A stretch of DNA of 64,000 bases from Gordius sp. MW1 (lineage: Eukaryota > Nematomorpha > Gordioida > Gordea > Gordiidae): the NCBI GenBank assembly GCA_964036665.1, contig OZ038527.1, forward strand, positions 2,852,001 to 2,916,000. The letters run 5' to 3'. The notes under the pieces are model-generated. The model saw only the letters and a program-made list of their open reading frames with translations. It was not told the DNA's origin and made no database searches. Below are positions 21,009-24,848 of this stretch, one piece after another. Both the position numbers and the translations under genes were made by a program. The number at the start of each line of letters is the position of its first letter. Within the stretch, counting starts at the first letter, position 1.

Positions 21009-21013
21009 GTGTT
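21009..21013. repeat. 5-bp target-site duplication GTGTT, left
   Basis: GTGTT directly precedes the left end of the gypsy insertion and recurs at 24652-24656 directly after its right end. The MITE reads continuously (TAGTGTTGTAAAC) once the insertion and one copy are removed, so this is a true duplication. Confidence 0.85.
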
Positions 21014-21065
21014 TAAGATGGCCTCCAAATTTCTGTGTATAAACGAGCTAAGTATTTATTTAGTA
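21014..21065 (-). repeat. Truncated inverted LTR 3' end (U5 end)
   Basis: 52 bp identical to the start of the inverted LTR at 24218 onward (TAAGATGGCC ... ATTTAGTA). It then switches without spacer into pol coding sequence at 21066. Confidence 0.85.
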
Positions 21066-22648
21066 AGACGCATACCGATAATTTTAATTATTTAAAAAAT
21101 ATTTTACTAACTAAACCCGTTTTAAGGTGTTACAACCCAGACAAGCAACAGATTTTAAGAGTCGATGCGTCAAATGTAGGCATCGGCGGCGCGTTATGTC
21201 AAGTCGAGGATAATGTTGAACACCCTATTTTGTATTTTTCGCGTAAGCTAAATAAAACGGAGGTCCGATATTCTGTTATTGAACGGGAGGCTCTAGCAAT
21301 GATGTACGGATTACAGCGATGTCGAGAATATTTGATTGGTAAATCGTTTACTGTAGTCACGGATCATAAACCTCTAGTTGCTTTGTTTAAAAAAACTAAC
21401 GACCAACTACTAATGTCTGGTAGATTACAGCGTTGGCTAGTTATGTTAGGAAATTTTACCTTAACTCTTAAATATTGCAAAGGTGAAGACAATGATTTAG
21501 CTGATGTATTATCGCGTTTGGGCTCAGATGACATCGAAGCTAATAGAGATTCTTTGTCTTGTGAGATTGTTGGAGGAGAGGTCATAAACATAATTAAAAT
21601 TTTGGATTTAAAAGACATTATAACCGAGAGTAATGCAGACCCTGATATAATTAAGGTTACGCACATTTTACTTGGCTTGGACGAGGACACTAACATACCA
21701 TCACCCTTTAAACATGTTTTAAACGAAATGTATTTAGAAGATGACGTGCTTAAGAGACAGGAAAGGTTAGTGGTTCCCAGTAAAATTCGCCAAGAGGTGT
21801 TAGGTGTTTTACATCAAGGTCATGCAGGGATGGTTAAGATGAAGGGACTAGCTAGACAATATGTCTGGTGGCCTAAAATTAACAAAGACATTGAAAACTT
21901 TGTCCGGCAGTGCGGGCTATGTAAGCTTGACGCACCAATGCCGCGGAGGAATAGAAAGGCGAGATGGCCACGTCCCAAATCTCCCTGGGAGAGAATACAT
22001 GTTGATTTTTTTGAATTTGACAAGAAACGTTTTATATTAATTGTTGATGCATATTCCGGTTGGACGGAATTTAAGAACGTTTTTAGCATGTCAGGTAAAG
22101 TAACAATAAATATTTTAAAAGAATTATTTGGCGCGTACGGATTACCTACCTACATTGTTACAGATAATGGGAAGGCTTTCGTAAGCGTAGAATTTAAAAT
22201 TTTTTGTTTAGAATTTAAGATTAGCCATTTACTAACGCCTCCTTATCACCCTAGCTCAAATGGGCAGGTGGAGAGGTATGTAGGAATAGTCAAAAAATGG
22301 TTAAGAGTAGCTAAAGAGACGAAGGGAGGTACATGGATGTTAAGGTTATATCATAATATGGCTCCAAGGTTTCCTAATCGTCCTTCAGTTAGCTATGAAT
22401 TCTTAAGCAGAAAGTTGAGGTACCCACCTGACTTGTTACAATATCTCGAACCAGTACTACCTAGGTCAGATAGTCCTAGATTAAAGCTAAATCAGAAGGT
22501 TTGGTATAGGAACTACTTGAAGGAACCTAGATGGGTACTAGGGGAGATAGTGGAGCAGGTAGGCTCAAGGATTTATAAGATTAAAAATGCTGAAACAAAT
22601 AATATTGAAACTAGGCATGAGGAACAAATTAAATTGTACAATGCGTAA
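21066..22648 (+). CDS. pol: Ty3/gypsy pol fragment: RNase H and integrase
   Basis: An open frame of about 527 codons after the LTR junction; the apparent upstream start codon lies in LTR sequence. RNase H region: DASNVGIGGALCQ, EREALAMMYGLQ, VTDHKPL, and DNDLADVLSR. Integrase: a zinc-binding HHCC region (LHQGHAGMVKMKG ... CGLCK), then a DDE core with HVDFFEF, VTDNGKAF and SSNGQVER, and a C-terminal GPY/F-like part. No stop codons or frameshifts occur inside. The missing RT fingers and palm, protease and gag make the copy non-autonomous. Codon and base composition are less AT-rich than the flanks. Confidence 0.92.
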
Positions 22649-22709
22649 TAGTTGAAAGACTTTTTTTTATGTAGAATGTTAAATCTTATATTTTTATATT
22701 CTGCATTAG

Positions 22710-23174
22710 ATGAGAATACCTACTGCATGGTATGATGTGCGTCTGGAAGTGATTCCGACGGCGCCAGTCCATGTGCGGAGGCCCCTGTTGATTACCTTTG
22801 AGGTGGAACCGACAGGGCGGGCGAGAGTGGTTAACCTAGTACACCCCGTTGCGGCAACACCTCGGGTGAGACCAAGGGAAAACGGCCAACCAGCTGCGGA
22901 GTTGATTCCTGCAGGAACTGGGGCATCGGGGTCTGTACAAGCCGGGGTGACCGCTGGCTCTCGTCGAGAAGGCCAGGTGGCCGAATTAACTCGGGCCCGT
23001 GGTAAAAAGTGCTGGGCATGCAGGAGGAGGCATCTACCCCCGATGTGCCCGAAAACCCAGGCGATTAATAGGCCAATAGGTCCGACCCGGGAGGAGGGAG
23101 AACCGGCAGTCCGGATTGAGGGGGCTTTAGAAGTCCTGAAACTCGATGGGACGGCCGCTTCGACTTCTCGTTAG
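22710..23174 (+). CDS. Short unrecognised frame in the gypsy element
   Basis: 154 codons between integrase and the 3' LTR, GC-richer than its surroundings. It has a small Cys/His cluster (CWACRRRHLPPMC) near residue 105 and Gly/Arg/Pro-rich sequence before it. It could be a displaced gag nucleocapsid piece or an extra frame. No function assigned. Confidence 0.4.
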   Translation: MRIPTAWYDVRLEVIPTAPVHVRRPLLITFEVEPTGRARVVNLVHPVAATPRVRPRENGQPAAELIPAGTGASGSVQAGVTAGSRREGQVAELTRARGKKCWACRRRHLPPMCPKTQAINRPIGPTREEGEPAVRIEGALEVLKLDGTAASTSR

Positions 23175-23536
23175 AGGACAGAGACGAGCTTAATTGTTTT
23201 TGTTTGTTTAATGTCCCCCCCCCCAAATACATACGCATATTATATATATTATACTTTTGTAACCATTATTGTTGCTTCACAGTTACATGTTTATTATGTT
23301 TAAAAAAAAAAAAAAAAAATTATTCTTCCGTAACAATTATTATACACGTTTATTATCCGAAAGAAAGGAGATAAATATATATATATTATCCTTCTGCAAT
23401 GAATATTGTACATGTTTATTATCCATCCGTCGGGGACCATTATTGTACATGGGTATTATCCTAGAAAGTGAAATAGAAAGAAAGCTTGCGACGTATGAGA
23501 TATGCCATTGAACGCGAGACCTGCGACATTAAAAAG

Positions 23537-23630
23537 CTATGCCATCACACGCGACATCCAAGATGTGCTATGCCATCACACGCGACATCCAAGATGTGCT
23601 ATGCCATCACACGCGACATCCGAAATGTGC
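23537..23630 (+). repeat. 31-bp tandem repeat, three units
   Basis: The unit containing ATGCCATCACACGCGACATC occurs three times, starting near 23537, 23568 and 23599. The third is slightly diverged. It lies in the non-coding part just before the polypurine tract. Confidence 0.85.
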
Positions 23631-23722
23631 TAACTGACGCGATACGTAAAAGAAAAGCGCAGAGAGAGAGAAAAGGAAAACAATAACAACAACCACAGAC
23701 TTCAAGTCTTCGACTTCTCGCT

Positions 23723-23733
23723 AAAGGGGGAGG
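23723..23733 (+). promoter_or_regulatory. Polypurine tract of the gypsy element
   Basis: AAAGGGGGAGG lies directly before the LTR start TGTGGTG, the usual position of the plus-strand primer. Confidence 0.8.
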
Positions 23734-24168
23734 TGTGGTGTTTCACACCGTTTTCGTAGTCGGTTTCTTTTCCCCTATACCCCCCCCCCTCGCTTACTGG
23801 TTTTAACTACTTTTCCGATTGGCTTTTGTCACCAGGATAAGATTTTATGATTTTTATTACCCATCTCAAGCGCTTACTGGTTTTAACTGCCTTTTCGTTG
23901 AGCCTTTTAATGGCCTTCGCGTTAGTTAGTGTAATTGCACATTCATCGTTATTATGAAATTATTATAAAATAATTCATTCATTTTCGCGTAGCTTGCAAT
24001 CACTTATTTTGAGCTTTAGAAAAAAGCGAATTCATTGTTATCATCGCACCATTATAAAAAGGAGAAAAGCACATTCATTATAATTCATTGCGTTTTTTGT
24101 TCTGAAAGGATATAATACTAAATAAATACTTAGCTCGTTTATACACAGAAATTTGGAGGCCATCTTAG
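23734..24168 (+). repeat. Gypsy LTR, plus orientation
   Basis: 435 bp from TGTGGTGTTTCACACC to GGCCATCTTAG, adjoining the polypurine tract. It holds a C-run near 23780 and two copies of a CGCTTACTGGTTTTAACT block. The inverted partner at 24217-24651 has the same length and looks identical by eye. Confidence 0.88.
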
Positions 24169-24216
24169 TCTGGTCCTCGAATGAGGGCGTGGGTTCAGAT
24201 CCCACTTCTGACACCA
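24169..24216 (+). pseudogene. 3' half of tRNA-Leu with CCA, cDNA-derived
   Basis: 48 nt matching a tRNA-Leu from position 39 to 76: anticodon-stem strand TCTGG, long variable arm TCCTCGAATGAGGGC, T-arm GTGGG-TTCAGAT-CCCAC, acceptor strand TTCTGAC, discriminator A, then CCA. Nuclear tRNA genes do not encode CCA, so this was copied from a mature tRNA. T-loop position 58, nearly invariably A (and m1A), is G here. The last 18 nt are the primer that matches the primer-binding site after the inverted LTR. There is no 5' half, so it is not a functional tRNA gene. Confidence 0.88.
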
Positions 24217-24651
24217 CTAAGATGGCCTCCAAATTTCTGTGTATAAACGAGCTAAGTATTTATTTAGTATTATATCCTTTCAGAACAAAAAACGCAATGA
24301 ATTATAATGAATGTGCTTTTCTCCTTTTTATAATGGTGCGATGATAACAATGAATTCGCTTTTTTCTAAAGCTCAAAATAAGTGATTGCAAGCTACGCGA
24401 AAATGAATGAATTATTTTATAATAATTTCATAATAACGATGAATGTGCAATTACACTAACTAACGCGAAGGCCATTAAAAGGCTCAACGAAAAGGCAGTT
24501 AAAACCAGTAAGCGCTTGAGATGGGTAATAAAAATCATAAAATCTTATCCTGGTGACAAAAGCCAATCGGAAAAGTAGTTAAAACCAGTAAGCGAGGGGG
24601 GGGGGTATAGGGGAAAAGAAACCGACTACGAAAACGGTGTGAAACACCACA
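24217..24651 (-). repeat. Gypsy LTR, inverted copy
   Basis: Exact-length reverse complement of 23734-24168. Read on the minus strand it is a standard 5' LTR (TGTGGTG ... CCATCTTA), one base, then an 18-nt primer-binding site (TGGTGTCAGAAGTGGGAT). The right outer end ACACCACA is followed by the GTGTT duplication. Confidence 0.88.
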
Positions 24652-24848
24652 GTGTTGTAAACGGCTGGGTTTTGTATGGTCGACCTTTGGTTTTAGTCGA
24701 TTAAACATAAACATACCATCGATTTTTGGTCTATTTTTCTTAGCATAAACAGATCAAAGGTTTGTTGGTCAATGATCTGTTTAAGTTTAGTCGATTAAAA
24801 TTAAAGGACCAAACAAAACCCAAGCGTTTTTACAACGCTAAGTGACAG

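Follow-up and report, generated by a model that had tools for sequence, protein, structure and literature searches.

A palindromic LTR pair centred on a copy of mature tRNA-Leu(CAA) in Gordius sp. MW1 is probably an integrated by-product of aberrant LTR-retrotransposon reverse transcription

How did part of a mature tRNA come to lie between two inverted LTRs in an animal genome? The locus that raises this question lies in a 64,000-nucleotide stretch of Gordius sp. MW1 DNA, here called the window (contig OZ038527.1, positions 2,852,001 to 2,916,000, or C1:2852001-2916000 in the genome of 211.8 Mb and 12 contigs that we searched). A sequence-only reading had proposed a single fossil intermediate of reverse transcription. 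Our analysis supports the mechanism of that proposal but not its singularity: the event is recurrent, and the palindrome sits within a larger truncated element. We consider it likely, with a probability of roughly 0.87, that the window locus arose when reverse transcription of an LTR retrotransposon went astray and its by-product was integrated, and that this process has recurred in the genome.

The palindrome is real. The two inverted LTRs of 435 nt with 48 nt between them that had been described occupy 23734-24168 and 24217-24651, and the arms are 100% complementary. As the entire inserted unit, however, the palindrome falls short; the unit runs from 21014 to 24651, with the target site duplication (TSD) GTGTT on both sides, and is a defective, truncated Ty3/Gypsy element of 3.6 kb of which the palindrome forms the end. 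The TSD is a perfect 5 bp, and a given pair of 5-mers would agree by chance with a probability of about 0.002 at the local base composition. The features of the locus, in window coordinates, are:

21009-21013: left copy of the TSD GTGTT (from the sequence)
21014-21065, minus strand: inverted final 52 nt of the LTR (U5 end), with which the inserted DNA begins on the left (from repeat search and sequence)
21017-22648, plus strand: ORF encoding RNase H and integrase domains, its frame staying open through the left junction
21066-23733, plus strand: 3' part of a Ty3/Gypsy internal region, with RNase H, integrase zinc finger and integrase core, then 3' sequence up to the polypurine tract
23723-23733, plus strand: polypurine tract AAAGGGGGAGG, directly before the LTR (from the sequence)
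23734-24168, plus strand: sense LTR of 435 nt, TGTGG...CTTA plus an unprocessed terminal G
24169-24216, plus strand: copy of mature tRNA-Leu(CAA), 48 nt, positions 39-76 with CCA; on the minus strand, the primer-binding site (PBS) plus a read-through of 30 nt
24217-24651, minus strand: inverted LTR of 435 nt, which is the 5' LTR when that strand is read and leads into the PBS and tRNA extension
24652-24656: right copy of the TSD GTGTT

A Pfam search of the ORF at 21017-22648 returned PF17917, PF17919, PF17921 and PF00665 (RT_RNaseH, Integrase_H2C2, rve), and the pol order is RNase H and then integrase (H2C2 plus core), as in Ty3/Gypsy elements. Other Ty3/Gypsy traits present are LTRs that start with TG, a polypurine tract before the LTR and a TSD within 4-6 bp. 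The reverse transcriptase and gag part is missing from this copy at the junction 21065/21066. The encoded protein is 31-40% identical to its homologues among the best 120, the top-scoring one being at 37%. The ends of the sense LTR are set by TSDs both here and at L002, another of the loci recovered by the genome searches (L numbers throughout), where the motif AAAGGGGGAGG also precedes the second LTR. Read along the minus strand, the unit starts with an LTR and the PBS plus tRNA extension, continues with an inverted LTR and the element's 3' half, likewise inverted, and closes with the U5 end; it is therefore bounded by a U3 end and a U5 end, the arrangement that integrase needs. The terminal G (CTTAG) is kept at the inner LTR end but missing from the inserted end at 21014, which makes it improbable that integrase formed the inner junction. 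Auto-integration as the source of the inner junction is unlikely, since the terminal G retained there is absent at the inserted ends of both the window element and L002. No simple microhomology accounts for the inner junction.

The central 48 nt of the palindrome, TCTGG...TGACACCA, had been matched from the letters alone to positions 39-76 of tRNA-Leu with CCA. The match holds, specifically to tRNA-Leu(CAA), the sole difference being G for A at position 58 (24198). Neither ARAGORN nor Rfam at gathering scores reported a tRNA in the window, as is expected of a stretch that holds only the 3' part of one. In this and the related read-through junctions the LTR passes into the tRNA copy, CCA included, without a gap.

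A 45-mer of the tRNA copy occurs at 11 exact places in the genome and at 30 places with at most 3 mismatches, against none for a reversed-pattern control, so the match is not due to chance. These 30 places comprise five tRNA-Leu(CAA) genes, by which we mean those within 3 mismatches of the 45-mer, and 25 that are not genes. All five genes have an intron after position 37, carry A58 and lack CCA. The non-gene places have an intact CCA in 24 cases and TCA in one, with G at position 58 in 19 and A in 6. A host tRNA-Leu gene that encodes CCA, sought among the 30 places because the sequence-only reading had named it as a refutation, was not found. Since the copies carry CCA and the genes have an intron and no CCA, the template was mature tRNA. 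We rejected capture from a host tRNA gene in view of the intron, A58 and missing CCA of the five genes found.

Shorter probes recovered many more places. The last 18 nt of the tRNA have 131 exact copies in the genome. Of places where the exact match goes on to at least 21 nt, past position 58, the genome has 88 with a purine at that position, 73 of them G and 15 A, and none with a pyrimidine. A 25-nt search gave 120 places at up to 2 mismatches; among the 100 matches listed, the 75 exact ones divide into 62 with G58 and 13 with A58. A tRNA-family search of the genome gave at least 59 matches (63 of 19950 candidates scored). By way of control, the end of tRNA-Lys with CCA was found at 3 places with at most 3 mismatches, CCA being intact in one. 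To judge from their sequence, the genomic places of 18 nt or longer look like copies of a primer tRNA. As for two of the checks proposed earlier, the tRNA segment lies next to LTRs at many places, of which the window is one, and the five host genes differ from the copy by their intron, A58 and missing CCA.

The loci examined contain 55 distinct junctions. Removal of the five genes leaves 50, and tandem or palindromic partners were merged by hand, so that L017, L023, L045 and L055 each keep a single row out of two, to give 46 loci, a sample biased by its making in that the 45-mer search favours long copies and the 25-nt search covers n (the copied length from the CCA end) of about 25 or more, its first 30 places being taken as loci. 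Position 58 is G in 38 of the 46 loci and A in 8. The remaining copied positions show 14 changes in 1752 cells, each at another position, with intron-bearing copies entered in this count only to n=49. If the loci are treated as independent, the binomial tail for the concentration at position 58 is about 5e-72, so that concentration is not background mutation. Presumably, tRNA-Leu(CAA) carries m1A58, m1G37 and m2,2G26. G58 is what misreading of m1A58 in the primer tRNA would leave, and we suggest that it is such a trace. Misreading of m1A by reverse transcriptases is documented, and where m1A is followed by A, as it is here, the misread pattern shows little C (PMC4787781). The two intron-bearing copies, L010 and L017, have G58 as well; the intron of L010 is identical to that of the A58 gene L021, so the G58 of L010 is unlikely to derive from that gene.

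One of these, L010/L038 (G000 C3:8174832), is a 1.3-kb inverted repeat around an unspliced, CCA-bearing copy of tRNA-Leu that reaches the D loop (n=87) with G58. The primer at this locus was apparently a tRNA that still had its intron.

A second primer seems to have been used in this genome, namely tRNA-Sec. A 24-mer of its 3' part occurs at 56 places with at most 2 mismatches, 44 of them exact, and all 44 exact places have A58. Either tRNA-Sec lacks m1A58 or the misreading is tRNA-specific; read-through, in any case, need not leave G58. At L015 (G000 C7:15846554 region) a sense 3' part of tRNA-Sec with anticodon TCA lies directly against the tRNA-Leu copy (n=60) and leads into the apparent inverted end of another LTR, and two primer-tRNA copies are joined there. 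The tRNA-Sec copy in L015 ends CCCA, and the longer form with CCCA occurs once in the genome. Two kinds of tRNA also meet at L052 (G000 C2:5452423), where a tRNA-Leu copy (n=27) is followed by a sense part of tRNA-Lys(CTT) from the D loop on, which ends GGCGTTA, not GGCGCCA.

The copies stop at preferred places. Among the 46 loci n is 26-33 in 25, 46-51 in 15, 60 in 3 and 76 in one, and the two intron-bearing copies have lengths of 80 and 87. As n=49 corresponds to position 38 (T38) and n=60 to position 27, the end clusters include one just before position 37 (n=46-51) and one exactly before position 26 (n=60). The n=80 of L017, with its 20-nt intron counted, is again position 27, the same stop base as in the n=60 loci, and L020 runs past position 26 with a changed base there. 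We know of no modified base that accounts for the commonest end, n=26-33 (25 of 46 loci). These ends fall at the entrance of the variable-arm hairpin, and our guess is that they come from a block at this hairpin. Together with the presence of CCA and the G58 majority, the clustered ends support the earlier proposal that reverse transcription overran its usual stop and went on into a tRNA that was still attached.

With at most 3 mismatches allowed, the genome has 24 places with the U5-PBS junction of the LTR family to which the window element belongs, 14 canonical and 10 extended. An 18-nt PBS matching the tRNA, which had been called normal, is present in the palindrome (the tRNA-exact TGGTGTCAGAAGTGGGAT) but is not the norm of the family: all 14 canonical junctions diverge from the tRNA, enter a common internal sequence and have no tRNA extension. 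Their PBS is TGGCGTCAGAAGT in 11 copies, a one-base variant of TGGCGTCAGAAGT in two and TGGTGTCAGAAGT in one, and agrees with the tRNA for no more than its first 13-14 nt or so, usually with a single mismatch. The fourth PBS base is C in 13 of the 14, where A73 of the tRNA would give T in its copy; the exception with the tRNA's letter is L072. We considered that the canonical copies might be primed by another tRNA, ending ...CTTCTGACG-CCA. In a second LTR family, for which the sequence after the PBS is mostly unseen, the last PBS base searched is A in 5 of 11 places and G, as in the tRNA copy, in 6 of 11.

The 10 extended junctions have the tRNA-exact PBS plus extension; none enters the canonical internal sequence, and all are rearranged. 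They represent 8 independent events, since L075/L076 and L080/L081 are pairs, and they continue as follows:

Window: into the inverted LTR end
L073 (same locus as L005): into an inverted LTR body
L074: a nearly complete tRNA, then other DNA
L075/L076: into other sequence
L077 (same locus as L007): six tRNA nucleotides, then the inverted end of a different LTR family
L078: into a second tRNA, tRNA-Sec
L079: into an A-run also present in the window's 3' internal region near 23300
L080/L081: a palindrome through an intron-bearing tRNA

That extended copies are always rearranged is the result for the one LTR family whose canonical copies were read, that of the window element; comparable classes of continuation recur in other LTR families. 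Inverted junctions with differing centres were also found at L005, L007, L010, L017, L031 and L045, and that of L007 joins two LTR families. With 10 of 10 extended family junctions non-canonical and further inverted joins elsewhere, the idea that the read-through product was joined to another LTR end gains support.

Integration of such products had been proposed as well, and it is supported by the 5-bp TSD of the window element and by those of short direct-LTR elements. Eleven direct-LTR loci cover both outer ends (L002, L011, L025, L034, L044, L046, L051, L054, L058, L066 and L070); the count excludes L009, L019, L023, L055 and the nearer L034 pair, in which the locus stops or another PBS comes next. 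A 5-bp TSD stands at the LTR boundaries of seven of the eleven, L002, L011, L044, L046, L051, L054 and L058, those of L054 and L058 holding if their LTRs start at TGTTG; in the other four, agreement is found only in shifted positions and may be chance given the shifts allowed. The seven TSDs indicate that read-through products were inserted by integrase.

Tandem arrays of an LTR plus a tRNA copy, with or without a short internal part, were seen at L023/L024/L040, L034/L035 and L055-L057, with repeat units of 1094, 878 and 610 bp.

From the observed structure, TSD, tRNA identity, CCA, G58 signature, end clusters, recurrence and rearranged outcomes we infer an order of steps, a way of joining and the modified bases involved. 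Plus-strand strong-stop DNA would start at the polypurine tract, copy the LTR, proceed into the tRNA-Leu(CAA) primer that the minus strand still carried, pass m1A58 with C inserted opposite and end at position 39, two bases short of 37. Its tRNA-derived 3' end would be unfit for the normal second strand transfer; instead, end-joining or a template jump from end to end would connect it with an inverted second cDNA at that cDNA's unprocessed U5 terminus, the second cDNA presumably being truncated and capped by the 52-nt U5 end. Having outer ends of U3 and U5, the hybrid could then be inserted by integrase with a 5-bp duplication. The window junction, where the tRNA copy runs straight to the unprocessed U5 terminus, suits either end-joining or a template jump. 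Read-through and misjoining would have acted repeatedly on the window's and other LTR families of the genome. The tRNA-bearing strong-stop DNA may be a displaced dead-end product, and it fits such displacement that, in the window's family, canonical copies mostly lack tRNA sequence in the PBS and tRNA-bearing DNA is found only in rearranged ones.

Several other explanations have to be set against this sequence of events. The ends near position 37 could arise by run-off, with no stop at a modified base, if the primer were a tRNA 3' half such as an unligated 3' exon beginning at position 38. The intron after position 37 in the five tRNA-Leu(CAA) genes found would provide such an exon boundary, and 15 of the 46 loci end at n=46-51, T38 being n=49. 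We nonetheless regard a 3'-half primer as unlikely: L003, L015 and L029 cross the spliced anticodon loop to C27, L020 enters the D arm and L010 and L017 include the intron, so longer tRNAs primed there, and the n=26-33 cluster requires another cause. The last step of our scheme has a possible, if somewhat doubtful, variant in which the tRNA's DNA copy, folded back on itself, serves as primer for the second arm on its own strand. L017 speaks for it, its copy reaching C27 with a 3' end, TCTGG, that complements copied positions 39-43 and turning there into the other arm; this turn lies at the anticodon stem, where copied positions 27-31 and 39-43 are able to pair. L031 likewise turns after n=47 and copies back TGGTCCTCGAA. 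The centre of the window's palindrome, by contrast, has one tRNA copy and not two and runs straight into CTAAG, so that self-priming needs the loss of two bases; we rejected snap-back priming for this junction as an inexact fit, while it does fit L017 and L031.

Two further readings were weighed. Perfect palindromes are classic artefacts of assembly or library fold-back, but here the inverted repeat ends exactly at the LTR boundaries, with a polypurine tract on one side and the TSD on the other, six other inverted junctions have differing centres (that of L007 running across two LTR families), and the extended copies as a group are independent of palindromes; an artefact is therefore extremely improbable. 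Nearly as hard to sustain is the idea that recombination captured the tRNA part from a host tRNA-Leu gene and that it then spread as a long PBS handed down with the element, G58 being a variant inherited along with it. Junctions of this kind can be inherited, since local duplicates of some extended copies exist (L075/L076, L023, L034, L055). Yet CCA, the spliced loop and G58 are encoded by none of the five genes found, the extended copies vary in LTR sequence, in end point and in the sequence that follows, and none of the 10 extended copies of the window's family enters the canonical internal region. We judge heritable capture very improbable and retain integration of misjoined read-through products as our explanation.

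Taken a step further, and here we only lean towards the idea, the genome would be a natural archive of displaced first plus-strand strong-stop DNAs of Ty3/Gypsy elements that records the length of read-through base by base. If so, recycling of the polypurine tract is not confined to yeast, and genomic copies report the modification and splicing state of germline tRNAs, including m1A58 read as G, stops before 37 and 26, and unspliced CCA-bearing primers. Plus-strand transfer outside yeast and retroviruses, and the fate of its dead-end products, have been difficult to investigate; this genome would preserve many such products as fixed DNA, with an apparent mutational mark at the tRNA's methylated base. 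The model in which strong-stop DNA is displaced and discarded would become testable through genome comparison alone, and the approach could read past tRNA modifications from genomes.

The window element resembles animal Ty3/Gypsy elements (Metaviridae) in its RNase H followed by integrase, polypurine tract, LTRs and 5-bp TSD, and differs from them in being truncated and in having an inverted LTR and a tRNA copy. Palindromic defective retroviral DNA forms during reverse transcription and has been reported for avian retroviruses; it shares with the window locus an inverted, LTR-containing cDNA from misdirected strand transfer, although we know of no tRNA copy with a modification signature at a palindrome centre from that work. 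Several of the relatives consist of an LTR, a short internal part, a polypurine tract and an LTR, like TRIM-type short LTR elements, but their internal part begins with tRNA read-through and their junctions are mostly unique, not those of an amplified family. A search of titles and abstract openings in the top-ranked open-licence literature found no description of integrated tRNA read-through in LTR elements. Misread tRNA modifications were considered as a cause of PBS mutations in mouse ERVs and rejected for that case (PMC7472051).

The closest parallels are in HIV-1 and in yeast. Plus-strand strong-stop DNA of HIV-1 normally stops at m1A58, an unmodified primer is copied through, and TRMT6-mutant cells yield plus strands that pass A58; a minor product has its end at the modified A37, and neither this 37-stop nor the full copy is deemed able to continue (PMC13191261). 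The products described here are like over-extended HIV-1 strong-stop DNA in that A58 of the primer tRNA is read through, with a minor HIV-1 stop at modified 37, but unlike it in that the HIV-1 DNA is an intermediate in vitro or in cell culture made with tRNA-Lys3, while ours is integrated genomic DNA with tRNA-Leu(CAA), in which base 58 is changed and the partners are rearranged. Ty3 and Ty1 do not pass on the tRNA sequence; the explanation given is that the first strong-stop DNA, which bears the tRNA copy, is displaced, and Ty3 builds up dead-end plus-strand strong-stop DNA (PMC5371799). As in Ty1 and Ty3, the tRNA sequence is mostly not inherited here, 13 of the 14 canonical PBS of the window's family differing from the tRNA copy. 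In yeast, however, 12 nt of the tRNA are copied and the dead-end products accumulate in particles (PMC5371799), whereas in this genome 26-87 nt are copied and the products are integrated.
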